From positions 8,374 to 72,373 of the forward strand of contig NC_020062.1 in the NCBI RefSeq assembly GCF_000330885.1: a stretch of 64,000 bases of DNA, written 5' to 3'. Positions 13,055 to 31,442 of this stretch are shown in pieces (position 1 is the stretch's first letter; every line of letters starts with the position of its first letter). Source of the stretch: Rhizobium tropici CIAT 899 (GTDB lineage: Bacteria; Pseudomonadota; Alphaproteobacteria; Rhizobiales; Rhizobiaceae). The position numbers were made by a program, and so were the translations under genes. A model generated the notes under the pieces. That model worked only from the letters and a program-made list of their open reading frames with translations, was not told the origin of the DNA and ran no database searches.

Positions 13055-13478
13055 AAAAGCACGGGCTTCCTGCGCCGGTCGAGAATGGGCTCAGGAAGCC
13101 TCCACGGGGGAGGAGCATCACAATCGTGATGGACTTCGTTCACTGGCCCGTCTCCATCGAATGGGTTCTCACGCGCGTACCTGGGCCGTTTTCAGTATCA
13201 TTGTCGGTCCGGCCGGGTCTGCAGGCAGCTGGTGGTCCGCTTCCGAGGCACATGCTGGCTTTTCCGGAGAGCAAGCAGCCACTCGCGAAGAAGAATTTGC
13301 GGCAAGTATAGCCAATGAAAGACGGGATCGTTGGTTCGACTCTTCTCAAGAGCGTAGTATATTAGCTCAAGTTTTCGAAGTGGATCTCAACGGGATTATT
13401 ATTTAGAGCGCGATTCGCAGAAGTCCTTTGCGTACGCCGCACCCTCGCTTTCCATCCTCAGCAGGTCGTCACCGATCG
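13055..13478. other. Intergenic, no gene recognised
   Basis: These 424 bases lie between the converging hydrolase and giant-protein operons. Open frames exist on both strands but none has a family signature or a convincing ribosome-binding site. Confidence 0.3.
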
Positions 13479-16400
13479 CTAGACGACGCTGCTTCCGCCG
13501 AGGGTGGCTGCTAGGGTAGTGATGAAGCTTGCTCCGCCGCGCCCGTCCGGATCTGCGACATCGGCGGGATGGGCGATCACGGCGCCCGGAGCCGCTGGAT
13601 CTGGGCCTGGCCATAGGGCAAGCAGCTTTCCGCGGTTGGACTCGGCGGCGAGGGCATCAGCAAAGACTTCATGCGCGCTGACGGGCTGGTGAAGCCTGAC
13701 CCAATCGCCTGCCGGAGCGCCGACGGCATTTGCGGGCGCCCCGCCGCCCACAGGTGTCGGTCCAACACCCAGATGCAGTCCCATCAGCGCTTTTCGGTGC
13801 GCCCGGATAGTGACGCTGGCCCCGCGATCCATCTGCCAGTCGATAAGCGCAACATCGGTTGCACCGTCGAAGGTGAGGCCGCGTCGGCTGATCGAGGAAG
13901 TACCTTGCAGGCACCAGACGTCGTCGACGATCACTGTCGTACTGCGGATGGCCAGTGGCCGCCCCGGCATGCCCATCGGATGACCGATCACCACCCGCGG
14001 TCGCTGCCCGTTAAGGCCATCGACCATGCCTCCCGCCAGGGCGAGCGTTCGCGCCGCCTCGAGCCGGTTGGCATAGAAGAAGGTGGAAAAGGGCTCATAG
14101 CCCGTCACGAAGGGCGGTTCGCGCGGCACGAGGATAACCACGCGGAGGCGCGGTTCGATGGTTAACCGGTTGGCGAGCGCGCTAATGAGGTCTACAGCCG
14201 CTGCCGGGTCTTGCGGTGGACCGGCATCATGCGTCGTATGCGCCAGCAGCGGCGTCTCGATGTAAATGAGCTCGCGGGCGTGCGCGATGGCGCGACGGAG
14301 CGCCCATTGTGCGTCGCGACGACCATAGTTGGACGAGCGAAGCTCGCGCGCGATCTGCCGGTGCAGCTCGGGATCGTTCGGCGTCGATACCCAATTGCCG
14401 AGTTGCGTGGTGACCCAGTTGACCGCTGTCGCTATGTCGGTATCGGGGATAATCGCGAGCTCGGGTGTCTCGACATAGGCCGGCACGGTCTGCAGCACCG
14501 CTGCTGCGATGGTCGAAGGCACCGCCGGCGGGGCAGGCGGTACCGAGGTGGCGTTGGCCTGAAGCAGCACCCAATTGGTCGGCAGGCCGGCGATTGGTCC
14601 CGACGGGAAAGCTTGCGCAACGTCGGCAGTCGGCACTACCGGCCGCGCCCGGTGAGCCGCGGCGACCCACAGATCGAAACCGATCTGGCTGGTTGCGACA
14701 AGGCTCGGTGCATGCACTTCGTGCCACCCGCTGCCGCCGGGATTGGCGAGACGGGGAGCTTGGGCGTCGGCCTCACGTGTCAGCCATGCGCCAGTGAGCA
14801 TTGACCGGTAGAGATCGACGGCGGCTCCAGGCAGGAGCTGTAGCGCGAATATGCTGTCATTGCGCGACATGGTGGGCAACCGCGGCGCCTCGCGCGGATT
14901 GGCATCGGTCGAGAGATGGCGGACGACGCCCTGGATAAATGCAATCGGATCGCCAAGTGCTGCCGCGAGCGGAAACGGCCCGCGCGACGGCGCGCCGATC
15001 ATCGGATTGGACGCGGTACCGCGCCAGAACATCGCAGCGAGGATATTGGCAGGCGGCAGCGGAGGCGCGGGCACGTCAGCGCCGACAGTCAAATGCAGAT
15101 TGCCCATCAGCTTGACGCGCGGCACGGCGCCGACAGCAGTCAACCAGGTCAGCGCTGCGTCCATGCGCAGCGTGGTTGTGCCGCCGGGGCGAACAACGTT
15201 GGTACCCAGGCTAAAAGGATCGGTCAGTCGAACGGTATCGGTTGCCGCGCCGGTGGTGATGGTGGCGTTGCCGTCGGCGCGGCGCAGCAAGGGCTGCTCG
15301 TCCGGCGAAACCCCCATGAGAATCTGGATCGGATAGAAGCGCACGGCGACACCAGCTGGCAATCCCGCCGGCAAGGTAACGAGAATATCGTTGCTGCCGG
15401 CGATCCAATTGGCCACGGCGGTCCTGAGCGGCACCAGCGCAGCCATGACGCTCGCGTCGTTGCCCGGAACCGGCGTTGCGGCGGGTGCGATCGGCCAAGC
15501 GCCATTCGGCCCCGGAATATTCGGGAAAGGCCATTGACCAAGGTCAAAATAGGAGCTTGCGGCAAACATCGGCCCGGTTTGGAACGCTGCCGCCGGATTG
15601 CCTCCCTGTAGATTGAGGATGACTTGCCCGATCCAGCCGAGCGCCGAACGGCTTTCCGGGAGCAAGGTAATCGGGCTGCCTTCCCGGAGAATCGATGCCT
15701 GTGAGGCGTTGGTCCTGACGTCGACACCCGGCACGCCATCGCGCGCGGTGAGCGTGAGATTGCCCAGAAGGTGAAAGGTCGGGTCGCATACGGCGAGGCG
15801 CATCGTGTCTCGCGCCAGCGTTCGTGGACCGGCTGCCGGCCAGCTTAAGGGCAGGTTGTTCAACCGGCCCTGTACCTGCCAGCCAAAGCGGAGCAGCGCC
15901 GGCGTGGTCAAGGCGCTCTGCGCGCCGCTTGGATCGGCATCCGCGGCGATCATGGCCCCGTTCGGGAATGCATAAACCAGGCCGTCGCCGATATGCTGGC
16001 CCTGCGTCGGCGCGGCTCCGACTGCCCCTGGGGTATAGAGGCTGATACCGGTATTGATGCCGGGCGGATCCTGCCAGGGACGACCGTGCAGATCGACTGC
16101 GTGGACGAAGTTGCCAAGAGGGGCGAGGCCGGCGATGGCTGTCGGCGTCCCGGCTGGCGCTCCTGCGGGCATGGCGCCACTCGCGGCCGACGGCGGGGCA
16201 ATGATCGCCGCGACCGCCGCGGCGAAGGCGAAGGGATCGACCGAAAGGCCATGTTCGTCAAACATCGTTACGTTACCGGCCGGCATAACTTGCTCGCCGG
16301 CACCAGCGATCCAGGGCGTCGCGAAAGTTGTTCCGGGATTAGTGATTAGGATTATGGAAGGTACTGGCCGGATCGACCGGTCGGGCGGCGCTGCATTGGC

Positions 16401-16742
16401 TGGCTGCAAATTACTGACCATCAGGCGTTCGAGCCGCAGTCTCGCTTGAGGGTGAATGCGAAAGACCACGGCAGTGCCTGCGGTCGTCGGCCAGGGCGTA
16501 CCATCGATACCAGATAGTCCGAGCCCGGTGGGATTAGGCTCGGTGGCCAGAATGCCCGCAAGCGGGGCGTACCACTGTGCGGCGACGGTGAAGCTGAAAT
16601 TGGCGACGTTTGCCACTGGCAGCGCCTGCGTCCAGGCAGGCGCGAGCAGAGGACCTGCCAGACCGAGTGCCGCCAGCCCATCGCTATTCAGTCGCTGCCG
16701 GATGTCACCCTGACCTGCAATGGTTATCGGGGGTGTTGGCAT
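13479..16742 (-). CDS. Giant protein 3 of unknown function with degenerate phospholipase D-like C-terminus
   Basis: This 1087-aa protein is rich in Ala, Pro and Gly. No family was recognised for residues 1-800. Residues about 800-985 follow the course of one phospholipase D repeat: ARELIYIETPLL, RVVILVPREPP, then STTVIVDDVWCLQGTSS, DGATDVALID and KALMGLHLG. In true PLDs the third segment carries HxKxxxxD; here His and Lys are replaced (IRSTTVIVDD) and only the Asp is kept, so catalysis is doubtful. There is no signal peptide or membrane span. It starts 10 bases after the stop of giant protein 2, with AGGAG before the ATG. It is the last gene of the three-gene operon. Confidence 0.8.
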   Translation of the reverse strand: MPTPPITIAGQGDIRQRLNSDGLAALGLAGPLLAPAWTQALPVANVANFSFTVAAQWYAPLAGILATEPNPTGLGLSGIDGTPWPTTAGTAVVFRIHPQARLRLERLMVSNLQPANAAPPDRSIRPVPSIILITNPGTTFATPWIAGAGEQVMPAGNVTMFDEHGLSVDPFAFAAAVAAIIAPPSAASGAMPAGAPAGTPTAIAGLAPLGNFVHAVDLHGRPWQDPPGINTGISLYTPGAVGAAPTQGQHIGDGLVYAFPNGAMIAADADPSGAQSALTTPALLRFGWQVQGRLNNLPLSWPAAGPRTLARDTMRLAVCDPTFHLLGNLTLTARDGVPGVDVRTNASQASILREGSPITLLPESRSALGWIGQVILNLQGGNPAAAFQTGPMFAASSYFDLGQWPFPNIPGPNGAWPIAPAATPVPGNDASVMAALVPLRTAVANWIAGSNDILVTLPAGLPAGVAVRFYPIQILMGVSPDEQPLLRRADGNATITTGAATDTVRLTDPFSLGTNVVRPGGTTTLRMDAALTWLTAVGAVPRVKLMGNLHLTVGADVPAPPLPPANILAAMFWRGTASNPMIGAPSRGPFPLAAALGDPIAFIQGVVRHLSTDANPREAPRLPTMSRNDSIFALQLLPGAAVDLYRSMLTGAWLTREADAQAPRLANPGGSGWHEVHAPSLVATSQIGFDLWVAAAHRARPVVPTADVAQAFPSGPIAGLPTNWVLLQANATSVPPAPPAVPSTIAAAVLQTVPAYVETPELAIIPDTDIATAVNWVTTQLGNWVSTPNDPELHRQIARELRSSNYGRRDAQWALRRAIAHARELIYIETPLLAHTTHDAGPPQDPAAAVDLISALANRLTIEPRLRVVILVPREPPFVTGYEPFSTFFYANRLEAARTLALAGGMVDGLNGQRPRVVIGHPMGMPGRPLAIRSTTVIVDDVWCLQGTSSISRRGLTFDGATDVALIDWQMDRGASVTIRAHRKALMGLHLGVGPTPVGGGAPANAVGAPAGDWVRLHQPVSAHEVFADALAAESNRGKLLALWPGPDPAAPGAVIAHPADVADPDGRGGASFITTLAATLGGSSVV

Positions 16743-16752
16743 CGCGTGCTCC

Positions 16753-19700
16753 TCATCTCGTCGCTCCCTGCTGAGAGACGCTCTGCCCGAGGCCGTTGGT
16801 CAGCGTGATGCCAACCGACATCCCGACGGAGGCCCGGATCCAGAGCACGAATCTGCCGCCGCCGAGGAGGCGGCGCACCAGCACGGTATCCGTGGCGCGA
16901 CCTGGCAACGGCACCTGGCTTTCGCTCGCGACGGATGGAAGGCCTAGCACCGAGAAGCTGCGGGTTGTCCATGGAATGAGCAGATTGCTCGGACGGAAGC
17001 GGACTTGCAGCGTCCAATCGTGGCCAGGCGCCAGCATTTCAGGGACGTTGGTGTCCATTGCGATCCAGACCGCCGGAGCGAGGATATTCTGGCGGCGCAT
17101 CAGAACGAAGCTTGAGATGACCGGTGCCGGGTCGGCGACGAAAGCTGGCAGATCGAGCAGCGCGTGGGTGGAGCGGCCGAGGGGATCGATCACGTCGATG
17201 CTCAGGGCCAGCGGCGCTCCTCCGGTGCGATCGATCCGGAGAAAAACATCGGCGCCGACATAGGCCGCGTGCTCGGTCGAGCCGAGCATGGCGTCGATGC
17301 TGGGGAAACTGGGTAGTCCGGCGAATGTCGACGATCCCGTAACTGGCGCGCCGCTTCCCTGCCGACTCATCCAGGACAATAAATGGTCACCGATGGTCGC
17401 GCTTGCACGCGGCGCGTCGCTCGTGACTTTGACCACAGCAAGCGTCAGCGACCGCCGAGGCGCGATCTCGGTCAGTGCAAGCGCTGGTGGCCCGACAGGC
17501 GGGAAGAGCAGGCCGTAGGAGCGGGAGGGAGGCGAGTCGACGGCGAGTCCAGCCCTGTCGAGGTCGTCATCCGGGCGGACCACCGCCCGGTATTGCAGCA
17601 GCTCCCAGCTGCGGACGGCTGTCGCATCGGTAAAGGTCGTCGCGGTCCATGCGGCGGGATTCGGCGACACGGCTGCAACCCTGTCCATCGTGCCGAGGGT
17701 ACGCGCCACGACGGCGTTACGTCCACGGTAGAGGGTGACTTGCGTGGCCGGAGTGGCGCCGGCTGCCGTCACGGTGATTTCGGGGGAGCCTGCCGCACCC
17801 ACCGTTGCCCTGATTTCGGGCATCGGGAGCCGCATGGGGTGCGGAATGGCGTACGCCAGAAAACCCTTGCGACCATTGGCATCCGGCACGGGCCAGCCGG
17901 AAACGACGTTCGTCTCGCTGACGCCAACCACGATGAAACAATGGATCAGGCCGCTGCCGCGCGGAAGCTGCGCCTCGTAGCGCATCGTGCCGTCGGGATG
18001 GATAGGCGGCAGGATCGGCTCGTCACCGAGCTTGCGGTACGCCGCCTTGATCGTCGGGAAGTGCGCGTTGTCCTTGTGGAGATCGAAGAGCGTCTGCATT
18101 CGGCTGTAGAAACCCTGGGTCAGCACCGGCCCGGGCTGGCCGCAGGCCGCCAGGATCGCCGCTTCGGTGGCCTCGAACACGCGATAGCGCCAGGCGCCGG
18201 TCGGCGCCCAGGCGATACTGGCGTAGGAGAGGCCGGCGGCGTCCGGCAGCGAGGCCCATACCGGATATTCGGGGGGCAGGGGTATCGGTGTCGGTGGCGG
18301 GAGCGGATTGGGCACGATGACCATTTCGCCGGCGTGACCCCAGTGGCTCCATTCGCCGGGCCGGATCGTCTCCTCCGCCTGAGCGTAGATCGAGACCGCC
18401 TTTTCTTTTGCAGCGCCATAGACAATCGAAAGGGCCGTCCATTCGATACGATAGCGGCGCTCCGTGCCGGCAAAGGGGCTGGCATTGGTCACTTCGGTAT
18501 CGTCGGGATGCAACGGTGTGACGGCCACGTCGGCAGGCTTTTGGATGACCATGCCCGACGCATCGAAGCGAATGAAGGTGTCGACGATGCCAGCCCCGGA
18601 CCGTGGCTTATCCGGCGGATCGGCGAGGGGATCAGGGGGCGCCGGGGAGGGATCGTATACGTCGACGACGAGGTGAAGCTGCCCGAGCGTGCGTTCGCTC
18701 GCCTCCCAGACGATTTCGGCGCTGGCGTTGAGCGCACATGGATCGACCCCGGTCGGTGCACTGGCGCGCGCGCGGCAAACCGTGACGGTTGGTATCTGCA
18801 CCTTCCCATGCTCAAGAGCCAGCCACGCGCCGGACCAACCGCTCCACTGGCCGAAGAGGTCGCCGGCGGCTGCCGCATATTGATAGTTGAGCGCAGCGCC
18901 GCTGACCGGCCGCGGCACGCCGCTGTCGCGAAGCATGACGGTATTCGGCGTCAGTGCGGGGTCGGCCGGCTGCCCCATTGCCCGCGCCGGGGTCGCCGCG
19001 CCGATCGGCACCCAGCCGTCGCCTTTGGGCCGCCGGCGCATCCGATATTGGCCGACACCTGGCTTGTCGAAGCGGGCGAGAGCATAGGCACTGGCGCGGC
19101 TGCGACCGGGCTGCGGCGAGGAGCGCGGAGTCTCGATCTTCACCGCACTGGTAAATGGTGCGTCCGGCTTGGGGGCGCCCTCGACGAAGCTCGGCGCGGG
19201 CAGCAAAGGGCTCGGCGCATCCGGTGCTGCGCGGAAGGTCGGCGCGAGCACGATGGCGGCCAGCTCGCGATCGACCTGCCTGGCAATGATTTGTGGCGGC
19301 TTGTTGCCGAATGGCCAGATCGAGGGTGTTTGCACGGCGGCCTTGATCTGGCCGCTCCATGGCACCGTCACCATGAAGTCGTCGAGCTCCCGGAGGCGCC
19401 CGCTGGGCTCGCCGACGTCGGCGCCGGTGCCGTAGCCAAGTGCAAGGCTGGCCCAGGTGTCGGTGGCAACCGCCGTGGTGAGATTCTGCAACGGCCGCGT
19501 CGTCATCTCCGAACGATCGATCGTACGACCGTCGCCGAATTCGTATTTGAGGCCGGCGATCTGCTGCTCGAATCGTGGCAGCAGCCTCGGCTTGGCGCTG
19601 GCAAGTTGCTGTGCGTCGACATCCGGCGGCGGATGGTCGGCGAGCACTTGCAGCAAGTCGCTCATGATGTTGGCGCCGAGTTGATCGACCAATGCCGCAG

Positions 19701-20430
19701 GGTCGGGCGGTACCCAAGGGTCGAGCCCTGCGAGCGTCGGCCATCCTATGACCGGACCCCAGTCCTTGAGCCGCTGTATTGCGGCGGCCACGGGGTCGTC
19801 GATATAGGAGGACACGTAGCCCTGCTGATCTGAACGATAATAGCTGGTGTTGACGAGGTGCGCGGGCACCGGCAAGCCGACGCGCTGGATTTCCTGCCAT
19901 CCGCCGTCATCTGCCATTGCAATGGCGGAGAGGCCGCGGGCATCGGTCAGAGCGCTTTCGTCGCTCAGCCGGACTCCGAGCATCGGCCCTCCACGTAGTG
20001 TGATCGTGCCCGGCCCGCCACTGACCATCGCCACGGGATCGTTATCCGCACGCGACAGGCCGTATGCGGTCACCGGCGCATTTACGTCGAGCTCGATGAG
20101 GAGCATTTCGGTGAGCCCGTCCCACCAGAAGGTGTCGGGGGCGATCCGGTGCCAGTTGTTGATGGATTTCGCTGGAGGTCGTTTGAGCGCCGTCCGCCGC
20201 CACACTGTGAATGGCTGGAGTGGGATGCCAAGGCTCGCGTTCAGTACCCAGCGTAGGGCGATGTAAGGGCTGCGTCCGCGGGCTTTGCGCGCCGTTCGGT
20301 CGTCAATAGGCGCCGCACGCGCCCAATCCTGCGCCTCCGGTGAGCGGTCCTGCGCGGCAAGTTGCCGGCGCGGATCGACGACGATCGCGTCGAGGAAGAA
20401 CTCGCCCGGCAGGCAGACGCGCGGCCCCAT
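16753..20430 (-). CDS. Giant protein 2 of unknown function, beta-rich with fibronectin-like segments
   Basis: This 1225-aa protein has no family I recognise. The N-terminal 400 residues are mixed alpha/beta with Trp-rich segments. Later parts read like fibronectin type III or similar beta-sandwich modules: near 520 (YQYAAAAGDLFGQWSGW), near 660 (YRIEWTALSIVYG), and 900-980 (VTLYRGRNAVVARTL, then a LLQYRAVVRP strand). Proline-rich linkers (PPPTPIPLPPEYP) separate them. It lacks a signal peptide and membrane helices. The start overlaps the stop of giant protein 1 in a TAATG arrangement, with GGGAGG at good spacing, which points to coupled translation. Confidence 0.8.
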   Translation of the reverse strand: MGPRVCLPGEFFLDAIVVDPRRQLAAQDRSPEAQDWARAAPIDDRTARKARGRSPYIALRWVLNASLGIPLQPFTVWRRTALKRPPAKSINNWHRIAPDTFWWDGLTEMLLIELDVNAPVTAYGLSRADNDPVAMVSGGPGTITLRGGPMLGVRLSDESALTDARGLSAIAMADDGGWQEIQRVGLPVPAHLVNTSYYRSDQQGYVSSYIDDPVAAAIQRLKDWGPVIGWPTLAGLDPWVPPDPAALVDQLGANIMSDLLQVLADHPPPDVDAQQLASAKPRLLPRFEQQIAGLKYEFGDGRTIDRSEMTTRPLQNLTTAVATDTWASLALGYGTGADVGEPSGRLRELDDFMVTVPWSGQIKAAVQTPSIWPFGNKPPQIIARQVDRELAAIVLAPTFRAAPDAPSPLLPAPSFVEGAPKPDAPFTSAVKIETPRSSPQPGRSRASAYALARFDKPGVGQYRMRRRPKGDGWVPIGAATPARAMGQPADPALTPNTVMLRDSGVPRPVSGAALNYQYAAAAGDLFGQWSGWSGAWLALEHGKVQIPTVTVCRARASAPTGVDPCALNASAEIVWEASERTLGQLHLVVDVYDPSPAPPDPLADPPDKPRSGAGIVDTFIRFDASGMVIQKPADVAVTPLHPDDTEVTNASPFAGTERRYRIEWTALSIVYGAAKEKAVSIYAQAEETIRPGEWSHWGHAGEMVIVPNPLPPPTPIPLPPEYPVWASLPDAAGLSYASIAWAPTGAWRYRVFEATEAAILAACGQPGPVLTQGFYSRMQTLFDLHKDNAHFPTIKAAYRKLGDEPILPPIHPDGTMRYEAQLPRGSGLIHCFIVVGVSETNVVSGWPVPDANGRKGFLAYAIPHPMRLPMPEIRATVGAAGSPEITVTAAGATPATQVTLYRGRNAVVARTLGTMDRVAAVSPNPAAWTATTFTDATAVRSWELLQYRAVVRPDDDLDRAGLAVDSPPSRSYGLLFPPVGPPALALTEIAPRRSLTLAVVKVTSDAPRASATIGDHLLSWMSRQGSGAPVTGSSTFAGLPSFPSIDAMLGSTEHAAYVGADVFLRIDRTGGAPLALSIDVIDPLGRSTHALLDLPAFVADPAPVISSFVLMRRQNILAPAVWIAMDTNVPEMLAPGHDWTLQVRFRPSNLLIPWTTRSFSVLGLPSVASESQVPLPGRATDTVLVRRLLGGGRFVLWIRASVGMSVGITLTNGLGQSVSQQGATR

Positions 20431-23400
20431 TACGCTACCTCCCAGATTGCGGCATCGAGGATCATCTTGAGCAGGTCGATATCCGACGTGCCGCTACCCT
20501 CGCCGAGAAACGGGTTTTCATGCACTCTGAGCGAGAATGCGATCGGCTTGTTGCGTCCCGCGTCAACCGCGGCGATGACAATGTTGAGGCCGGGCTGGCT
20601 GATGATGTGAAGCGGCGCTGCGCCGCCGACGCCTACCGCCGGGACCACCTCGAGGTAGGGCTTGTCGACGAGGCTGATTACCTCGCGCTGCAGCCGCGGC
20701 TGCCCAGGCGGCTCGTAGTTCTGCGGTTCCTTGCGGGTGCGCACCAGCGGCTCAGGGGTGCGGATGACGATGAGCCGGGGCTGCAGTGCACCACCATCAG
20801 GCACCCACAATACCTCGATCTCGGGGCTCTTTACTTCGACGACAGGCCGCAGGCCTGCCTCGCCGAGCGCCGCATCGATCTGCGACCGCGACAGTTGAGG
20901 CGCGTTGAGCAAGGCCAGGAGTGCCGCGATATCTGCGGCGCTGGCCGGAAACTCGACCGGCTTGCTCACAGAGACGTCGGCGCACATGGCCGCCGGATTG
21001 GCGTAACGCGAGGTGGTAAAGGCACGTCGGAAGAGCGGCGTCATGAGCTTGCCAGGTGGAGGCGGCGGCGCATTGACCGGTTCGATGTCGAGGACGAAAT
21101 CGGTGCTCGGCTCGAGCAGCAGGTTGATGTCGACGATGGTGTGACGCGTGACGGCCCCTGACGTGGGGATGCAAGGCGCGTTGGCCAAGACATCACGGAT
21201 CATGCCCTCCCACGGAGACAGCACCGACACGCCAACGAGCGGTCGGGTATTGACCTGATCGGCTGCCACCGCGGTGACGGCGTCCTTGATCACGGCAAAG
21301 GTGTGGGGGAACCCAGGCGAGGTGGGCGCGGCGTTCTTGTAGGAGGCAGCGCGGACCTTGGCCTGCAGCTCAACTCCGTAAGTCTTGAACATCGTCAGCA
21401 GATAATCGACGGCGAAGACGATTCGGATCGGCAGGCTGTGAAAATAGAACCGCTCGCCTTCATCGGGGTCCGTCGTGATGACCCATGGGTCGAGCCTGAC
21501 CGGCATCGTCTTCGCCTGGTCCTGCCGGTCACTGGGTGAGGCGATGACGCGGGGCGCCAATGGTTGGTTATCGGTGCGGAAGCGGAAGGTCTGGATCGGG
21601 GCGGCGTTCCACGTCTTCGCATCCGATCCGTCGGCGTTGCATGTTGCCCATTCCCACTCGACCGAAACCGCGTATTCGGTATTGGGCAGAAGGAGCGCGG
21701 GCGGTGCCGTCATGGGCGCGAGCGCGCCATTGATCTCGCTCTTTTTGTGATTCTGGATCAGCGTCTCGTCGGTTTCGCGTGCTACCTCGGCTGCGGTCAG
21801 CGTCTCAATGACGCCGACGAGATAGGAGGGGCGGTTAAAGCCCTCGTCGATGATGCTTAGCAGGTCGACGATGCCGAACTGGACATAGGCGGTTCCGTCC
21901 GGGGTCTTCGTATCGACGAGAATGATGGCGCCGTCCTCTTTTCGATTGGCGGTTGAGAGGAAATTGAAGACCTCGATAACGCGGCAAGCCCAGGGTCCTT
22001 TAAGATTGATCCATGGTTTTGGCAGATCGTTCTGTGTCTGGATGCGGAGGCTGCCGTTGCCGTCTGCCGTGATCTTGACCGCGTCGAGCTGGTTGCCATC
22101 GGCATCGAAGCATCGCATCTGAAGGCGGCCGCTCCGCACGAGCTGGTCGGGCGCGAAGATCAGCACTCGAAGCGTCACGATTTGACCAGTTGCAAGCGTC
22201 AGAACGTCCGAGTAGTCGTCACCCCGGCTGGCTTCCGCGAGCAGCTCGTTGATGATCTCGGCGAGTGGATAGCCGCTCTGAAGGTCCGGCGCCTTCGGCC
22301 GCTGGAACGGTGCTTCGAGCAACTTGGCGTAGCAGCCGCGAGAAGCCCGCTGTCGTGTCGCATCGGCAAATCCGGGCAGGAGCCACGCCAAGCTGGCCCG
22401 CTGGTCCGACGAGCTCGTTACGGCGGCGAAATCGCGGATTGTGGTGAACCTTGGGCGTTGGGACATGGCGGCCTGTGCCAGGTGGGTGTCGGGGCGCTGC
22501 CGTGCCACGGCGCCGGCAGCCGTGCAGCCGTCAGGGCATGCGACATATCCTCCGATCACTCGGGCAGGCGCAACATCAACCAAGAGATCGGCGACTGGAT
22601 TGCCGGAACGCCAGTTCTCGGCGATATCCAGACGAAGCTTGGGTGGAGCCTGGCGCGTCGATTGCGGTGGATCGGGCCAGGCGGTGCCGAATATCTGCCA
22701 GCCGATGCTCGACGGTCCGAGTGGCTGGTCGTGGAACGTCCAGAGCACCGATGTGGCAGGCGCGACCTCGTCGCAGATCGTCGCCCAATGTTGGCGGAGA
22801 AAATCCTCCGCGTGGCGGCTGCGTTCGACGGCGCTGGGGTGCGCATCAGGTATGCGCGTCAGCAGTGCGAGCTCGCGCTTGCTCTCGGCGGTGGGGTCGG
22901 GAACGTTCGGCCACCAGACAGCAGGAACCTCGCCGGGGGTTAGCGCGTGGTCCATGGAAATGCCTTTGAGACGGTATGTATAGTAGGGCGTCCCACGATG
23001 CACCGCGGGCGAGGATGGACCGATGGGACCGATCGCGATACTGGTCGTGATGGTCCTCCCGGCATCGTTAGGGTCGAGCTGCGTCGCCGAGAAGGCGCCG
23101 TCGATGCGGGGCGTGCAGTCGAAGTGCAGCACGATGATCGCGTCGATCGGCACGACTTCGCCGTCGGGGATGGCGCTGCCGTCGGCGTGTGCGTCGACAA
23201 GCTTGCCATCGATCGGACGGTCGCTGCTGACACCGGCCAGCAGCGCCGCCGCCCGCGACTGCAGGCTGACGCCATTAACGAGCGGCGGCGGGGCCGGTGG
23301 ATCGTCGGGACGGGAGCCCAGTGTCACGTGCACGGAACCCGATACGGTGAAGAAGAACAGGTCAACTTCGCCATGCACTTCACCGTCGATCTGAACGACG

Positions 23401-26400
23401 TTCTTTGTCGGCTGATAGAGATGGGTGGGATCACCGGGATAGTCCGGATCGGGCACCGTCGGGCCGTCGGGCACCTGTCCCGCGACGACCGTGAGCTTGG
23501 CCGCTGCCTCGATGCTCACTACCCAGAGATGCAGCTCTCCCCATAGTCTGATCTCGCCGGTAAAGAGGATCGGTGCAAAACCGAGGCCGGCATCGGCAGC
23601 GGCGCCGACCGAAAGATAGAGCCCATCATCCACGTCGCCCCAGGTGAACGAGACGGAAACACCCGTCGCGATAGAGAAACCGCCGAGCCGCAAGGGTAGC
23701 AACGGGAAGGTACTGTCGTGGCCTTCATCGTAGTTGTCGGGAGAGGCCGAACTGTCGGGTATGCCCTTGCCGCGGATCATGAAATAGCCGCGAGCCTTGA
23801 AGAGATCGAAGAAAGTGACCGTTGCCGGGTTGTACCAGGAGCCCACGTCGATCGCGAAATGCGCTAGGTCATCGAAGGGAAAGATGGCGCGCGTCGGTAT
23901 GTGGACAGCAAGCAGAGGCTTGATTTCGTAGTCGAAAGTAAGCCCGATGGTGATCCGGCGCCGCCCGAGGTCGATGTCGATGACCGCGAGGATCGTCGCA
24001 GTCGGATTGCCTTCTCGTGGCGGCCGGATTGCAATGATCTTGGCCTTCATGACGAGAAGGATGCGTGGCCCAGGCATCTCGAAGATGAGCATGCCCTTGA
24101 CGTTGAGCGTAAAGCCGGCGTCCATCGTTCCGAGCACGGCGCCAAGGCCGATAGCCCAACGATCGATGTCCGGCACCCAGCCGGTGATCTCCATCGGATT
24201 GCCGTTGACGCGCGTTAGCCAGTCGAGTGCCGGAATGGGATCGTTAGGATGCTCGTCGCGGCGGAAATGCAGTGCGAAGAGACCGCCAAAGCCGAAAATC
24301 CCGAGCCCCGAATTGCCGAGGGCAATCGGTACCGGGAAATCGACCTCGAGTGTCAGAAGGATTGCGGTGGCCTGCGGCCCCGGCGCGGGCGGCGTCGGCA
24401 CGTGGCGGACTGAGAGCCCTGCCGCAACGCGGACGCCGAGACCGGGCAAAGAGACATCGAGCTGGCCGGCGAAGCCATCGGGATAGATCGCAAGATATCC
24501 ACCGCCCTCGATGGCGCCGCTGATGTTGATGTGGACGCCAAGCGCTGTGATCGTCGGCGGCTGCCCGCCTTCGAGCGGGATGCGGATGGTCGTCTTGTCG
24601 ACGGTGACGACGCCCAGATCGACCTTGAGGCCGAGGTCGAGCTCCAGATTGGCCGGGTTTGAGCGAGCGATACGCGCGCCGGATACTTGCAGGATGTCGC
24701 CGAGCGGCGGGGGCACCCTGATGCTGCCTGTGCTCGGGATATTGATGGTAAATCCCTTCGAGGAGTCGAAGACCGGGATAATGTCGCGGATTTGCGGCGT
24801 GTCGGAGGTTTTGAACCCCACAGCTTTGTAGCGGACGGTAATGGGATTCGTGGGGTCGGTGTTGATGAGCTGCCTGCCGGCGAGGTTCAGTGTGACGACG
24901 AGGGCCACCTCTACGTCCAGCAGCAGCGCGCCCTGCGTGCCATGGGGATCATGTGCGACGACCAGCTCTCCGCCGTAGAAGGTGATGCGTGGTACGTGCA
25001 CGATATCAAGTTTCGCCGCGGCGAGCGGGACACCAGCTCCAATCCCCAGCGCGACAAGGTCGCCGGCCGGCGTGTTGGAGGTTGCGACAGCGTCGAGCAG
25101 CGGCGCGAGGGCAACCAGCAGCCCGAAATAGTCGCGCCAGAAGTAATCGGCCACGGGGCCGGCGGCGAGCGCGGCGGGCGGCGGCGTCTGCAGGAATCCA
25201 TCGCTGTCTTGCTCGAAGAGGCTCGCCAGCATCTGCCATCGCCCGACGGTGTCGTCGAGGGTAAGCTGAAGCCGCATGTCGAGCACGCCGTCATTGGGAT
25301 CGGCCGCCTTGCCGACTGGCAGCGAGATCGGTCCCTGACCCTGAGGTATCGGATTCTGCTGCTGGACGGTGGTCAGGTAGCTCTCGAGAACCGTGGTGAC
25401 GTCGACCTTGAGACGGATCTCGATGGCAATCAGGCGATTGTGGTCGAGTTCGACGCGGACATGCAGCTCCTTGAAGCGGATGCTGTCGTTGCCTGGCGCT
25501 TCGCGCCTAATGACTGGTGGTTTGAAGGGAGCCGGCACAGGCTTACGGGCAGGCCGGGCAATCTGCACAGCGGCCGTTGCGGTGGTCGCCGGCCGAGCGC
25601 CGGTCGGGATGCTGGCGAGGACGCGGCGATAGGCGCCGCGCCCGGGAGCAAGGTAAGGATCGGTAGGGGGCTGCTCGCCCTCGGGCAGCTCGATGATCTG
25701 GTTGGTGACACCTTGCGCTGTAAGCAGCCTACGGATCGCCCAGATGCGGCGCTGCGACAGCGCGACGTTGTATTCGATGACCGGGACCTTCTCCTTGCTG
25801 GCCTCCCCAGCGAGGGTGATAGGTGTATCCGGTTCTGCCTTGGCGGCGGCCACGAAGGCGTTGAAGTCCGAACTGGTCACGAGCTCGTTGTCCACACCCT
25901 GCCAATTCTGCTGGTTGGGATTGGCGGTATCCGCCGAGGGAATCGTCCGGATATTCTCCGGATTGCTGGCGAAGGCTGCCCAGGTCGGATCGTCGACCGT
26001 CTCCGGCGTCGCAGACGAGCGGAGAGGTTGATCGTATTGGAACTGGCCGTGGAAGGTGACCGGGCTCGGCGGTTGGGCCGCGATATTCCAGGTGGCGCTG
26101 ATGTCCACCGAGGAGCCGTGCGGCAACGACACGGAAGCGCGGCCAGCAGTGATCGGCAAAGCCTGCGGTGGTCCCCCAGCGGTTGAAAATGTCGCAATCG
26201 CCGTCTCCGGCGCAAAGACGATAGTGAGCTTTTCCTGCTCGGGGAAATCCAGCATGCCGATGGCATAGCCGGGAGGACCTGCGTTGACGACGGTCAGCAC
26301 GGCCTTTTCGGAAGTGCGATTGAAGCCACCCTCCGGAGCGGTCAGCGATGGCGGTAGTAGAGCCACGCGCACATCGGCATGGCGCGGCTGCGGCCCTACG

Positions 26401-27695
26401 TGCACATCGAGGATGTCGATGCCGACAGTGTGGCTCGTCTGATTGGGGGCCAACTGGACGACGATGGGGTCGGTGGTCTGCGTCTTACCGTCGATATTGA
26501 TGTTGTAAGGCGGCTGCCCGCCCGTGACGTCGACCACCCATTGCGACTTCCGCGGAACCGGTACGATCTCGGATGTGAAAGGCGGAGCTGGAGGCGCCGC
26601 GACGTCAGGCAGGGCGATCTTGTCGACCAGTCCGCCGAACTCGTCGTAGATGGTGATCGTCGCCCCTTGCGCTGCGTCCGGCTTGACGACATCGAGGCCA
26701 AAGATTGCGGACAGGCCACCGTCGCTGCCGAACTGGAACAGCAGTTCCCGCGCTGAAACGTCGACACCAAGGCCTTTGAACGCCGGCGGCTGGATGAAGA
26801 CCCGCACATCGGGAGCATAGAAGCCGCGGAAATCATCGCCGACACCGAACTTTTCGAGGATCGCTGGTGGCGTCTCGGTGCCCGAGAGATCGAGCAGCAG
26901 GCTGTTGAAGCCGAAGCCGAGAACATCGTCGGGGCCGAAGAAGGCGTAGGGCGGCTGCATGCGCAATAGATCGCCGTAGCCGGCACCAGCCGGATCGTTG
27001 ATATCGAAAGCGGCCCAGGAATCGAAGTTGATCGATACCTGCGGATCGCTGCCACCACCCGTGGTCGCTCCGGCAGTTTGGTCGATCGATAGCTTTATTT
27101 TTGGCAGAACGAGCGTGACTTCGGGATTTTGCGGGTCAGGGACGAGTATGCCGTCCGGCTGCAACAAGGCGCCTGTGAGAAACGGCAGATGCAGTGTTGC
27201 AGCATCGAACAGCAGATCGAGATGAAAGACCGTATCGACAGAATCCGCTGCGGTCTGACCCGGCGCGGGTTGGCCCTGGCCAAGCCCTGCCAGAAGCGCG
27301 GCAAGCGGGCCGTTGTTGAGCGCTGCCGGATTGCCGCCGGGGCCGCCGGAAACGACGAGGTCGGCAATGGGTGAAGAAATGCGGGGGGCGTTCAGCTGGA
27401 AGGTGATCGCGATGTCGGGAAAATCCCAATATGCGCCCTGCGTGCGCTGCGTACGATGGTCGACTGTCGCGTTGGGGTTCCAAGTGATGGTAAAGGGCGG
27501 TGTGAAAGTGGGCAATGCATTGCCAACGTTGGCGCTGAAACGGGCAATCCCGCTAAGGCAGATTCCGTTGTCGTCGAAGGCTGTCTCTATTTCGGTAACG
27601 AATAGCGCGCTCAGCAGTTCGTGCAGCGGTTGGCCAATGGCCGCACCGCCGACGACATAAGGACTGACCATATCGAGCAACGCCAACGTCGCCAT
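20430..27695 (-). CDS. Giant protein 1 of unknown function (2421 aa), beta-rich with OmpA-like insert
   Basis: This is the largest gene of the window and first of the three-gene operon. A single GGQPPYNINIDG motif near 388 resembles SprB/PKD-type beta modules. Residues about 600-695 resemble the OmpA C-terminal peptidoglycan-binding fold (ITLAGEAS, NVALSQRRIWAIRRLL, a YRRV ending). Residues about 900-1350 consist of long alternating hydrophobic strands with glycine-rich turns (LGIFGFGGLFAL), as in extended beta structures. No signal peptide, transmembrane helix or catalytic motif is evident. The ATG at 27695 has GAGG five bases upstream; an open frame extends 59 codons further but is compositionally unlike the gene. 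Some large DUF6603-type proteins look similar, but I cannot confirm this. Confidence 0.82.
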   Translation of the reverse strand: MATLALLDMVSPYVVGGAAIGQPLHELLSALFVTEIETAFDDNGICLSGIARFSANVGNALPTFTPPFTITWNPNATVDHRTQRTQGAYWDFPDIAITFQLNAPRISSPIADLVVSGGPGGNPAALNNGPLAALLAGLGQGQPAPGQTAADSVDTVFHLDLLFDAATLHLPFLTGALLQPDGILVPDPQNPEVTLVLPKIKLSIDQTAGATTGGGSDPQVSINFDSWAAFDINDPAGAGYGDLLRMQPPYAFFGPDDVLGFGFNSLLLDLSGTETPPAILEKFGVGDDFRGFYAPDVRVFIQPPAFKGLGVDVSARELLFQFGSDGGLSAIFGLDVVKPDAAQGATITIYDEFGGLVDKIALPDVAAPPAPPFTSEIVPVPRKSQWVVDVTGGQPPYNINIDGKTQTTDPIVVQLAPNQTSHTVGIDILDVHVGPQPRHADVRVALLPPSLTAPEGGFNRTSEKAVLTVVNAGPPGYAIGMLDFPEQEKLTIVFAPETAIATFSTAGGPPQALPITAGRASVSLPHGSSVDISATWNIAAQPPSPVTFHGQFQYDQPLRSSATPETVDDPTWAAFASNPENIRTIPSADTANPNQQNWQGVDNELVTSSDFNAFVAAAKAEPDTPITLAGEASKEKVPVIEYNVALSQRRIWAIRRLLTAQGVTNQIIELPEGEQPPTDPYLAPGRGAYRRVLASIPTGARPATTATAAVQIARPARKPVPAPFKPPVIRREAPGNDSIRFKELHVRVELDHNRLIAIEIRLKVDVTTVLESYLTTVQQQNPIPQGQGPISLPVGKAADPNDGVLDMRLQLTLDDTVGRWQMLASLFEQDSDGFLQTPPPAALAAGPVADYFWRDYFGLLVALAPLLDAVATSNTPAGDLVALGIGAGVPLAAAKLDIVHVPRITFYGGELVVAHDPHGTQGALLLDVEVALVVTLNLAGRQLINTDPTNPITVRYKAVGFKTSDTPQIRDIIPVFDSSKGFTINIPSTGSIRVPPPLGDILQVSGARIARSNPANLELDLGLKVDLGVVTVDKTTIRIPLEGGQPPTITALGVHINISGAIEGGGYLAIYPDGFAGQLDVSLPGLGVRVAAGLSVRHVPTPPAPGPQATAILLTLEVDFPVPIALGNSGLGIFGFGGLFALHFRRDEHPNDPIPALDWLTRVNGNPMEITGWVPDIDRWAIGLGAVLGTMDAGFTLNVKGMLIFEMPGPRILLVMKAKIIAIRPPREGNPTATILAVIDIDLGRRRITIGLTFDYEIKPLLAVHIPTRAIFPFDDLAHFAIDVGSWYNPATVTFFDLFKARGYFMIRGKGIPDSSASPDNYDEGHDSTFPLLPLRLGGFSIATGVSVSFTWGDVDDGLYLSVGAAADAGLGFAPILFTGEIRLWGELHLWVVSIEAAAKLTVVAGQVPDGPTVPDPDYPGDPTHLYQPTKNVVQIDGEVHGEVDLFFFTVSGSVHVTLGSRPDDPPAPPPLVNGVSLQSRAAALLAGVSSDRPIDGKLVDAHADGSAIPDGEVVPIDAIIVLHFDCTPRIDGAFSATQLDPNDAGRTITTSIAIGPIGPSSPAVHRGTPYYTYRLKGISMDHALTPGEVPAVWWPNVPDPTAESKRELALLTRIPDAHPSAVERSRHAEDFLRQHWATICDEVAPATSVLWTFHDQPLGPSSIGWQIFGTAWPDPPQSTRQAPPKLRLDIAENWRSGNPVADLLVDVAPARVIGGYVACPDGCTAAGAVARQRPDTHLAQAAMSQRPRFTTIRDFAAVTSSSDQRASLAWLLPGFADATRQRASRGCYAKLLEAPFQRPKAPDLQSGYPLAEIINELLAEASRGDDYSDVLTLATGQIVTLRVLIFAPDQLVRSGRLQMRCFDADGNQLDAVKITADGNGSLRIQTQNDLPKPWINLKGPWACRVIEVFNFLSTANRKEDGAIILVDTKTPDGTAYVQFGIVDLLSIIDEGFNRPSYLVGVIETLTAAEVARETDETLIQNHKKSEINGALAPMTAPPALLLPNTEYAVSVEWEWATCNADGSDAKTWNAAPIQTFRFRTDNQPLAPRVIASPSDRQDQAKTMPVRLDPWVITTDPDEGERFYFHSLPIRIVFAVDYLLTMFKTYGVELQAKVRAASYKNAAPTSPGFPHTFAVIKDAVTAVAADQVNTRPLVGVSVLSPWEGMIRDVLANAPCIPTSGAVTRHTIVDINLLLEPSTDFVLDIEPVNAPPPPPGKLMTPLFRRAFTTSRYANPAAMCADVSVSKPVEFPASAADIAALLALLNAPQLSRSQIDAALGEAGLRPVVEVKSPEIEVLWVPDGGALQPRLIVIRTPEPLVRTRKEPQNYEPPGQPRLQREVISLVDKPYLEVVPAVGVGGAAPLHIISQPGLNIVIAAVDAGRNKPIAFSLRVHENPFLGEGSGTSDIDLLKMILDAAIWEVA

Positions 27696-27954
27696 AGCGG
27701 CCTCACGAGAGACAGTCGCAAATGCTGTTGAGTTTGAAAAACTCAACGATCGGGAAATGTCGTTAGAAATGCACTCGACGTGCTGCGAAAAAACAGAATC
27801 TCGTCGAGAGTTCGGAACGAGACGCGATTTTCGATTGAATGCCCCACTACAGGATTGGGAGATTACCCCCAAAACGGGAGCTTTGAAAGGGCATTTTTAT
27901 ACAATCGGTTGTACAATTCTGCCAGTGAGCTACGCTGTCGTTTGGCACTTAAAC
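27696..27954 (-). promoter_or_regulatory. Leader of the giant-protein operon with a TACAA/TTGTA palindrome
   Basis: This stretch is clearly more AT-rich than its surroundings and must carry the promoter of the operon. At 27900-27913, TACAATCGGTTGTA forms a 5-4-5 inverted repeat that could be an operator. The region ends at the putative left end of the ISL3 element, so part of the original promoter may have been displaced. Confidence 0.4.
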
Positions 27955-28015
27955 GGGCTCTTCCTCACTTTGTGTGGTTCATCTGCCGTTAGGGACAGTG
28001 TCGCTATGGGCGGCG

Positions 28016-28965
28016 ATGCGAACGAAATCGAAATGGTCGCCCGGTCCAGGAGTCAGGATTCTGGGTGTCGCGCTCACTGTTGATGACGGTTGGGTTGTTT
28101 CCGCAGCTGGATCCGCGATCGGGATTTGTCCCGATTGTGGACGTCGAAGCCGAAGTAGGCATGGCTGGTGCAACCGCAGTCTCCAGGATCTACCAGCCCA
28201 AGGCAAGCCGGTGACAGTGAAGCTCCGGCTGAGCCGCTGGCTTTGTGCAAATCGGGAATGCGCACGACTAACGTTCACCGACCGGCTGCCCACGATCGTT
28301 GCTCCTTATGCGCGCCAGACGAGAAGGGTCGGAGAGATTGTGGGCTTGCTCGGCCACAGCACCGGCGGCCGTCCTGGCGGGCGTTTGATGGAACGTCTCG
28401 GCATGCCGGTCAGCGACGACACCATCCTCCGGCAACTGAAGAGGGATGCCGCGGTTTCTCATCGGAGTTCCGAGGTCCGGGTAGTCGGCATCGATGACTG
28501 GAGTTGGCGACGGGCGACGAGCTATGGAACCATCCTAGTAGATCTCGAGCACCGCTCGGTCGTCGACATACTGGACGACCGCAGCGTCGACAGTGCGGCC
28601 AAGTGGCTTCGTGATCATCCTATCGTCGAGGTCGTCAGCCGGGATCGCTGCGGCCTATATGCGCAGGCCGTGCGTGAAGGCGCACGGCAGGCCCGCCAGG
28701 TCGCCGATCTGTTCCATCTGATCCAAAACCTTCGCGCGGTGATCGAAGAACAGAAGAGCCTTTCTGGACGCACAACGGGCAGGTCCATCCTGTCGGAGGA
28801 CGCAATTGTTGACGCTGCAACGCATCGCCGGCGTGCTCGGCTCGCCCACAGGCAATCGCGCCAGGAAATATTCGAGATGCTCCATGCCTTGCGCTAGCAA
28901 AGGCTCTCTTACCGCGAGATCGTCCGACGGACCGGCTACGAACGTCGCAGCGTAACGAAGTGGCT
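28016..28965 (+). pseudogene. ISL3-family transposase, interrupted by a stop codon and truncated
   Basis: The protein begins with the ISL3 zinc-binding module (CPDCG, then the CANREC pair) and continues with the DDE domain (VVGIDDWSWRRATSYGTILVDL, VVSRDRCGLYAQAVREGA, ADLFHLIQN). A TAG at 28895-28897 ends the frame after MLHALR. The same frame goes on with QRLSYREIVRRTGYERRSVTKWL, a helix-turn-helix typical of ISL3 enzymes, so the stop is a mutation inside the gene. The C-terminal part with the last catalytic residue is missing. A possible left terminal repeat starts near 27955 (GGGCTCTTCC). Non-functional. Confidence 0.85.
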
Positions 28966-29380: not shown

Positions 29381-29904
29381 GTGTTCATTCCATCAGTGCG
29401 CGCGCCGTTGTCCGACGCGATTGCACTTTAACGCCTTGAAGAGATACGGGCAGTGGACCCGATAGTTGTATCTTTCGTACCGAGCAGTTGTACGATTTGG
29501 AGAAACACGAATGAAGGGTTGCCGACCGAACGACGATTGCTTGCCGCCAGCGCCATACCTTGGCTTATCAGCCGTTAAGTTTACGATGCCGGTTAGGCGC
29601 CTGCTTTGCTCGATAGGTTGCTTACCCGGTTATGTCGGTGAATAGGGGGAGCCGATTACAGGAAGGACGATGGGTGAGATCTCATTGCGGCAGGCGAATA
29701 TTGTCTTCCGTGTACCGGCGTTCAAAATCGTCGATCATTTGGCATCATGAATGAACAGTATCTAATTTCATAATTTAAAGAATAGGCGACAAAAGCGACA
29801 AGATTTGATAAATTTAGGCTAGCCGGTTGGGCTTTGATTGTAGATAAAATTCGCCGGACGTCTTTGCAGCGCCAGCCGGTATGTGGTGGAGGAGGAGAGA
29901 TGCT
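29381..29904. other. Intergenic, no gene recognised
   Basis: These 524 bases separate the LuxR remnant from the oxidase region. The second half is AT-rich, fitting a promoter for the downstream genes. One 44-codon frame at 29511 has a GGAG upstream but no recognisable content. Confidence 0.3.
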
Positions 29905-30717
29905 ATGGTGGCATTCCACGTCATGGCCGGTGCGAGTGGCGAGTTTGCTCGCCCGGAAGTGCGGAAGATAAGGATCGGGGATCTTATCGATGCGCTGAGA
30001 TCGGGGCTTAATGATTTCGGAGAAAAGCCCTCACATTACGTTTTTCTCTGTCTTATATATCCGATCACAGGCGTTTTCCTGATCATGTGGAGTTCCGGCG
30101 CTAACCTGATGCCGTTGCTTTATCCCTTGATGTCCGGCTTTGCGCTGGTTGGCCCGATTGCGGCCCTTGGCCTTTATGAAATCAGTCGACGCCGCGAACG
30201 GGGACTGGATAGCTCATGGTATCACGCGCTGGAGGTCTGCCACTCGCCGGCACTGCCATCGATCATTGCAGTGGGCTTCATGCTGTTCGCGCTTTTCGTC
30301 GCTTGGTTATTTGTCGCGCAGCACATCTACACCCTAACCTTCGGCAAGGCCGGTCTGATCTCGGTCTCCACTTTCCTGCTAGATGTGCTGACCACTTCTC
30401 GAGGTCTCTCCCTTATACTTTGGGGAAACTTGGCCGGTTTCGTTTTCGCAATAATTGTGTTGGCGACGACCGTGGTGACCTTCCCGCTGCTGCTCGACCG
30501 GGATGTTGGCGCAACCGCAGCCGTAAATGCGAGCATACGCGCCACGCTTGCCAATCCAGGACCTGTTGCGCTTTGGGGATTGATCGTCGCGGCGCTGCTC
30601 GTCGTCGGCACGATCCCGATTTTTGTCGGCCTTGCGGTCGTCATGCCCATCCTAGGGCATTCAACTTGGCACCTGTATCGGAAATTGATTGCCGCCTATC
30701 CGAACCGCATGTCTTGA
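29905..30717 (+). CDS. DUF2189 integral membrane protein
   Basis: This 270-aa inner-membrane protein has about six hydrophobic helices: near 45-65, 75-95, 120-145, 150-170, 180-205 and 225-250. The opening VRKIRIGDLIDALRSGLNDF and LMSGFALVGPIAALGLYEISRRRE segment are hallmarks of the DUF2189 family, which often sits beside cytochrome oxidase genes in alphaproteobacteria. Its function is unknown; an assembly or accessory role for the oxidase is only inferred. The ATG at 29905 is preceded by GGAGGAGGAGAG, a strong ribosome site, and was preferred over 29881. Confidence 0.85.
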   Translation: MVAFHVMAGASGEFARPEVRKIRIGDLIDALRSGLNDFGEKPSHYVFLCLIYPITGVFLIMWSSGANLMPLLYPLMSGFALVGPIAALGLYEISRRRERGLDSSWYHALEVCHSPALPSIIAVGFMLFALFVAWLFVAQHIYTLTFGKAGLISVSTFLLDVLTTSRGLSLILWGNLAGFVFAIIVLATTVVTFPLLLDRDVGATAAVNASIRATLANPGPVALWGLIVAALLVVGTIPIFVGLAVVMPILGHSTWHLYRKLIAAYPNRMS

Positions 30718-30820
30718 ATTCACAAAGGAAACCTACCCCGGGATCATCCTCCAAGCCATTACGACCTATCCGATGGGAGTCGCGTCGTTTGGAATAGCGA
30801 TGAAGAGAATGAGGATTACC

Positions 30821-31207
30821 ATGTCTTGGCGTTTTCTTCCGATCTGTCTCCTTCTTGCCATTGCCGCCCCGCATGACGCTTTCGCGCAGGAGGGCGATGC
30901 GACCGCGGGAGCCATTGTTTTCAAGAAATGTGCCATTTGCCATATAGCCGAAACGGACCAGAACAAGATCGGACCTTCGCTGAACGGTCTGTTCGGCAGA
31001 ACGGCTGGAACACATCCGAATTTCGCCTATTCGCCGGCAATGCAGCAGGCAGGCAAAGACGGCCTCGTCTGGAGCGAGACATCGCTCCGCGACTATTTGC
31101 ACGATCCCAAGGCGAAGGTGAAAGGCACGAAAATGACCTTCATCGGGCTGAAGGACGATACCGAGATTACCAATCTGATCGCCTATCTGAAGCAATACTC
31201 CAAATAG
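30821..31207 (+). CDS. Class I c-type cytochrome
   Basis: This 128-aa periplasmic electron carrier has a signal peptide (cleavage after FAQ near 23). Haem is attached at C37-A-I-C40-H41 and the sixth ligand is probably M105 in KGTKMTF. IGPSLNGLFGR follows the haem site, as in the cytochrome c2/mitochondrial c group. It probably feeds electrons to the CuA site of the oxidase encoded downstream. The ATG at 30821 has GAGG six bases upstream. An ATG at 30800 would add seven basic residues and is possible. Confidence 0.9.
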   Translation: MSWRFLPICLLLAIAAPHDAFAQEGDATAGAIVFKKCAICHIAETDQNKIGPSLNGLFGRTAGTHPNFAYSPAMQQAGKDGLVWSETSLRDYLHDPKAKVKGTKMTFIGLKDDTEITNLIAYLKQYSK

Positions 31208-31442
31208 CCAGATGGCAAATAGGGATGAGCTGTCTTCCGTGCCGCCGGTTGGATCGGTGGAATTCCGCTCGGCGATTTGACACCGCCGATGTGTTGGCGC
31301 GGTGTCTTCGCGCCCCGTATGGTTTGTTAGGATGAGCCGCTATCGTCGTCGCAATTGCTCGCCTGACCGCTTCATGAGATAATGCTAAAACCTTTCGCGA
31401 TGAGATTGTGGAAATATTCGCGACCGGGTCAGGGAGGCGACA

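Follow-up and report, generated by a model that had tools for sequence, protein, structure and literature searches.

Do three adjacent genes encoding giant proteins form a single system in Rhizobium tropici CIAT 899, and what could such a system do? This question is raised by a stretch of 64,000 nucleotides (hereafter the window; NC_020062.1, positions 8,374 to 72,373 of the forward strand), in which the minus-strand genes termed here A, B and C make up a coupled operon over positions 13479-27695 of the window (Table 1). The contig carrying it measures 2.08 Mb in a genome of 6.69 Mb in four contigs, and the closest relatives of the three genes are found in Rhizobium. A preliminary description, made from the sequence alone, had delineated the three open reading frames (ORFs), and our analysis reproduces their coordinates and sizes (2421, 1225 and 1087 residues) as well as both junctions, namely the TAATG overlap of A with B and the start of C 10 bases past the stop of B, behind an AGGAG. 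The GGAGG in the last codons of A can be regarded as a possible ribosome-binding site for B. The reading frame of A is open upstream to a TTG at 27872, and the family alignment starts at the ATG at 27695. Scans for promoters and terminators returned none upstream of A and a single weak match resembling a promoter, on the opposite strand close to C.

The recurrence of this arrangement in other genomes indicates that A, B and C are a conserved system, beyond chance. Indeed, a scan of genome contigs with a C profile yielded 14 loci, which belong to R. tropici, Paenibacillus, two Glycomyces, Bryobacterales, Edaphobacter, Gemmatimonadetes, Pirellulaceae, two Nitrospira, Rhodospirillales, Bacteroidia, Rhodanobacteraceae and Chitinophagaceae, and which we take to represent eight phyla; the record titles of nine of them indicate metagenome-assembled or otherwise uncultured genomes. 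Conserved co-occurrence of the three genes had been set beforehand as a test, and the order is kept in every locus where it is visible: B lies immediately upstream of C in 14/14 loci, and A immediately upstream of B in all 11 whose contig is long enough, the contigs of the other three (L011, L013 and L018) starting within B. The A/B junction ranges from an overlap of 8 bases to a gap of 4 bases in 10 of these 11 loci, taking the nearest possible start codon, and the B/C spacing from an overlap of 10 bases to a gap of 46 bases with the starts used here. The eleventh A/B locus, from Gemmatimonadetes, has an A split over two frames (L010:2-5650), which may reflect a sequencing error or decay. Protein searches, in each of which only the nearly 8000 best candidates were scored, gave at least 39 C, 34 B and 67 A clusters, with hosts including Rhizobium, Streptomyces, Amycolatopsis, Micromonospora, Mycobacterium and a Chloroflexota bacterium; in Streptomyces griseochromogenes and Mycobacterium vulneris, locus tags leave a one-gene space between C and A.

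The module is rare as well as conserved. C is absent from 60 relatives of the host, two of which show short PLD-type (phospholipase D-type) matches. Among 297 genomes of the order, the C profile matches 10 (expectation value, E, of 1e-10 or better), with a full-length C in two, the window's own genome (G000) and a second one (G246); in the other eight, whose matching ORFs are 486-569 amino acids long, the match is restricted to the PLD lobe. Likewise, the A profile (E 1e-20) matches precisely these two genomes, and in G246 the genes follow one another as A, B, C, each overlapping the next by 4 bases. In samples of the window's phylum (299 genomes), the Glycomyces phylum (296) and the Edaphobacter phylum (297), the seed genome alone is recovered at E 1e-30, at most two candidates being scored per listed genome in all of these large samples, that of the order included.

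The three proteins have also diverged together. Their pairwise divergences are correlated over 11 taxa (r 0.98), and, once near-duplicates are removed, Mantel r values of 0.91, 0.92 and 0.97 are obtained over nine taxa, none of which is reached in 5000 permutations. This test covers 11 of 16 carriers, in most of which A is cut by locus ends; the incomplete loci L008, L010, L011, L013 and L018 are excluded. The divergence does not follow host lines: Paenibacillus is nearest to Edaphobacter (53% in C), the nearest to Nitrospira is Bacteroidia (52%), and G246, despite belonging to the same order, shows only 32% likeness to the window. Furthermore, the ratios of nonsynonymous to synonymous divergence (dN/dS) against R. 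tropici amount to 0.13 for A, 0.18 for B and 0.12 for C, so that all three proteins are under purifying selection. Since order and coupling recur across phyla and selection maintains each gene, the arrangement is more than chance, and order in all loci, joint presence, joint divergence and purifying selection together show the neighbourhood of A, B and C to be a system. The synonymous divergence (dS) from R. tropici is 0.37 for C, 0.16 for A and 0.20 for B, which hints at recombination inside the cassette.

How this system spreads can be read from its nearest relative, R. tropici SARCC-755, whose identity with the window ends at both cassette edges though its sequence continues past both. Because this relative shares only window positions 13325-27921, the cassette moves as a unit, and horizontal transfer of A, B and C as a unit is thereby shown. 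The GC content is 64.1% within the cassette vs 59.0-59.6% outside. The insertion-sequence debris of IS110 and ISL3 type announced for the flanks in the preliminary description was recovered on both counts, the former as an IS110-family transposase at 86-1033, at the left end of the window (Pfam E 3e-21). Six same-genus genomes share DNA with the window only from 29641-29773 rightwards, which places the left junction in a variable stretch; same-genus conservation resumes over 29641-31260, and the stretch on its left side, which holds the cassette and the ISL3 remnant, varies among these six relatives, none of which shows a clean empty site. Scanning each end alone (the two ends were not cross-compared) for terminal repeats gave only short chance-like pairs. 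Spread by plasmids was considered and rejected, the sole plasmid matches being a stretch of PLD lobe from a Nonomuraea record of 11.9 Mb and a gene of Paracoccus aminophilus plasmid pAMI4. A common accessory gene was also rejected: none occupies the same relative place in unrelated genomes when the flanks are compared upstream of ten genomes (two with less than 3 kb beyond A) and downstream of 13/14 loci (L008 ends inside C and has no downstream flank), together with the window, using ORFs picked by length. One flank family without identification occurs about 30 kb off in the window, 7 kb off in Paenibacillus and beside C in two close Nitrospira; other likenesses between flanks are scattered and pairwise.

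Table 1. Features of the A-B-C cassette and its border (window coordinates)
Feature	Position	Strand	Remarks
Whole mobile cassette	13325..27921	-	92-95% DNA identity with R. tropici SARCC-755; 226 bases upstream of A start, 154 bases downstream of C
Gene A	20430..27695	-	2421 aa (amino acids); N-terminal part, OmpA-like module, long amphipathic beta-meander core, conserved C-terminal half
OmpA-like segment of A (residues 609-670)	25686..25871	-	Ser replaces usual Asp, Arg kept
Amphipathic beta-meander of A (residues ~899-1459)	23319..25001	-	25 strands, each at least 8 residues long
A/B junction	20428..20442	-	TAATG overlap; GGAGG within final codons of A
Gene B	16753..20430	-	1225 aa; no recognisable family
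B/C junction	16740..16755	-	TGA, AGGAG, 10-base gap, ATG
Gene C	13479..16742	-	1087 aa; predicted PLD-fold pseudoenzyme
PLD-fold part of C (residues ~322-1064, both lobes)	13551..15779	-	Fold matches
Degenerate second HKD site of C (R933, T935, D940)	13923..13946	-	H position His in 1/45, K position Lys in 0/45
ISL3-type transposase remnant	27974..28897	+	Adjoins upstream end of cassette

What the proteins may do is best approached from C. The window's C has no Pfam or NCBIfam match; the degenerate PLD-like segment suspected earlier is real and lies in this protein, in which a two-lobed PLD fold is present. The catalytic motif HxKx4D is found in 0/46 C proteins, and at the second HKD site the H position is occupied by His in 1/45 and the K position by Lys in 0/45. 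C is thus not without a family, since the PLD fold is present and the catalytic motif lost, and it appears from these fold and motif comparisons to be a dead phospholipase. The claim that the operon has no recognisable family needs refining for C, while the window's A and B match none above cut-off. The structure model of C includes its first ~310 residues, which the fold search hardly probed and its matches do not cover.

Protein A gave nothing above cut-off in Pfam or NCBIfam, its sub-threshold matches being of OmpA/Pal type (18.9 of 27.2 bits for Pfam OmpA and 22.5 of 125 for NCBIfam Pal) and to gluconate permease (E 0.16-0.31). The OmpA-like segment of the preliminary description is supported by the A family profile, which matches Pal-type PDB chains (E 2e-5 to 1e-3), and less so by the window's protein, which stays below the Pfam cut-off. 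In OmpA-like domains, an Asp and an Arg hold the diaminopimelate of peptidoglycan, and the Arg, at residue 650 of A, is kept in 49/49 rows. The same profile also matches a phage decoration protein. Two A relatives (P0127 and P0138) bear PG_binding_1 at their N-terminus (residues 12-70), which suggests that the addition of cell-wall docking modules to A is possible. A structure model covering residues 730-1725 predicts a core in which hydrophobicity alternates over 25 of the 30 modelled strands, five strands of 4-5 residues being excluded. The Foldseek matches of this core include LptD and ApoB100, and outer-membrane barrels make up nearly all of the 50 entries in the VIA list; alignment was confined to candidates from Foldseek, and both tables show aligned entries only, so that a fold missing from them may still match. 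Reading the N-termini by eye, we found residues conserved from the start in most members, unlike a cleaved signal, and noticed by eye, without a predictor, no signal peptide or membrane anchor.

Protein B is the least legible of the three. The window's B has no Pfam or NCBIfam match, 35 members searched against Pfam gave three single-member matches at chance level (E 0.03-0.08), and nothing in the PDB falls below E 0.3, the value of an antibody chain; a fibronectin-like segment, suggested earlier for the operon, is therefore not borne out in B. Profile comparison of B with A and with C reveals no relation. As for composition, the richness in Pro noted earlier was found again (9.7-10.8% in A, B and C vs 5.3% in neighbouring ORFs) and is accompanied by a poverty in Cys (0.2-0.5% vs 1.2%), a trend common to most relatives though not to all, the C of L018 departing from it for Cys.

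Comparison with known systems leaves the module apart. C differs from the PLD superfamily (human PLD1 and PLD2, plant PLD alpha, Pseudomonas PldA) by the missing catalytic motif and by its extra N-terminal region. A retains the Arg of the OmpA/Pal C-terminal domain and lacks its Asp, and it departs from outer-membrane porins and LptD in its core and in the absence of a noticed signal peptide, the module being also found in Streptomyces, Amycolatopsis, Paenibacillus and Glycomyces. The A relatives P0108 and P0129 pass the cut-off (35.6 and 46.2 vs 27 bits) of DUF6603 (PF20248), a Pfam family without assigned function; 2/20 further A relatives match it at E 0.01 or better, and no match is seen in the window's A (in one genome search the control genomes were silent too). 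Tc toxin complexes consist of three giant subunits, and the likeness goes no further than this general plan of very large proteins that lack a signal peptide; membership was rejected, as neither Pfam nor NCBIfam yields such a match up to E 1 for any of the three proteins. A known anti-phage defence system was likewise rejected (no PADLOC family for any of the three at E 0.1), as was a phage or viral origin, no relative of C or A occurring in phage records or viral contigs, where B was not searched. PHROGs gave only E 0.047 and 0.25, both to families without assigned function, fold comparison gave weak matches only, and, as for tail genes of a phage or contractile injection system, no flanking gene recurs near the operon at a corresponding place. 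DUF6603, PF20248 and six locus tags are not mentioned in the literature searched, outside which most subscription papers lie, and broader searches of the partly accessible literature returned nothing describing such a three-gene module. The A-B-C module, whose parts use known folds, matches no known kind of system, in agreement with the earlier suggestion of an undescribed one.

We tentatively favour the reading that A, B and C are one self-contained, horizontally transferred three-protein system whose complex engages membranes or lipids, and we hold it to be a serious possibility short of probable. A physical complex of the three proteins that meets lipid is inferred from the folds. A would provide an amphipathic beta-sheet of very large size, closed into a barrel or open as a groove, which shields lipid or inserts into it, and would dock via its OmpA-like module; C may use a non-cutting PLD pocket as a binder of phospholipid headgroups or phosphate, or serve as a scaffold, and B could be the adaptor between A and C. 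The complex would act outside the cytoplasm, leaving by lysis or another route, which would agree with the patchy spread, with a composition high in Pro and low in Cys, and with N-termini that show no obvious signal peptide. In its boldest form, this would be a bacterial nanomachine of a class not described before, passed between phyla as a unit (14.6 kb here), in which a giant amphipathic beta-protein inserting or carrying lipid is governed by a dead PLD recognising headgroups without cutting them, a version that we consider unlikely.

Several observations weigh against a lipid-engaging three-protein complex. The A-core model is of moderate quality (predicted local distance difference test, pLDDT, 76.8; predicted template modelling score, pTM, 0.48), its amphipathic strands may or may not close into a barrel, Foldseek template modelling (TM) scores are mostly ~0.1-0.3, the ApoB100 match is weak (probability 0.35 only), and alignment to porins leaves a root-mean-square deviation of ~8-12 Å; alternating hydrophobicity is also seen in ordinary layered soluble sheets, for which no control was included here. 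The usual peptidoglycan-binding Asp is replaced by Ser in 48/49 rows (Asp in 1/49), and Pfam OmpA reaches E 0.01 in only 1/20 and 2/11 scanned A proteins. The compared flanks contain no export genes that accompany the module. The Rhodanobacteraceae C (L017:9980-12205) has 741 amino acids and lacks the second lobe, and low Cys is not universal, the C of L018 having 0.8% vs 0.5% in its neighbours. The short C of L017 may be degenerate or an assembly fault. Finally, among 101 ORFs of pAMI4, an A-like gene annotated 'outer membrane protein' matches the A profile at E 7e-191 (L053:430-11440; WP_020952543, WP_020952542 pair); the gene starting 1 base later resembles B weakly in BLAST (best E of 1.5e-8) and is not found by the B profile, and no C was detected over the next 7 kb downstream. 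C may accordingly be dispensable there, and may have been added or lost in some branches. The closest A relative of the pAMI4 gene here (P0140) retains the TD of the OmpA site. None of five phrases looked for in the pAMI4 paper (PMC3925955) is present in it.

The same evidence can be read in other ways. Antagonism by a secreted or lysis-released complex, in which A would be a giant beta-pore in the target membrane that B and C cap or aim, is rather improbable: a rare, patchy, horizontally moving stand-alone operon of three giant proteins without obvious signal peptide (by eye) and the porin-like strand meander of A would suit it, but no recurring small partner gene is adjacent, no toxin family is matched, and hosts without an outer membrane also carry the module. 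We are similarly doubtful of a lipid-carrying groove serving lipid exchange or storage in the producer, with A as a bridge- or lipoprotein-like carrier and C as a phospholipid dock. The strand alternation, the fold match to LptD with the weaker one to ApoB100, and the PLD fold without catalytic motif speak for it, whereas the VIA entries, within Foldseek's candidates, are nearly all barrels, no membrane anchor was noticed, and the module is missing from the 60 relatives of the host. Quite unlikely is a structure on the surface or outside the cell (an adhesin or an appendage), built of stacked beta domains with the OmpA-like module on the wall and a pseudo-PLD cap; the loss of the OmpA Asp, the absence of a noticed signal peptide and of a shared secretion partner nearby oppose it, although the Pro-rich, Cys-poor composition, the OmpA-type and phage-decoration-protein profile matches of A and the PG_binding_1 of two relatives would agree with it. 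That three unrelated genes are neighbours by chance, as the lack of sequence relation between B and C or A and B (A vs C was not compared) and the pAMI4 gene without C might suggest, is extremely improbable, being contradicted by purifying selection, by a gene order kept in all loci across phyla, and by genes that occur and diverge together.

Taken as a whole, the module is intact over very large evolutionary distances and yet present in well under 1% of sampled genomes, and must therefore give an occasional strong benefit. Its study would test for a giant lipid-engaging or pore-forming machine in bacteria that the family libraries searched have missed, and a function for DUF6603-type proteins could follow from it.
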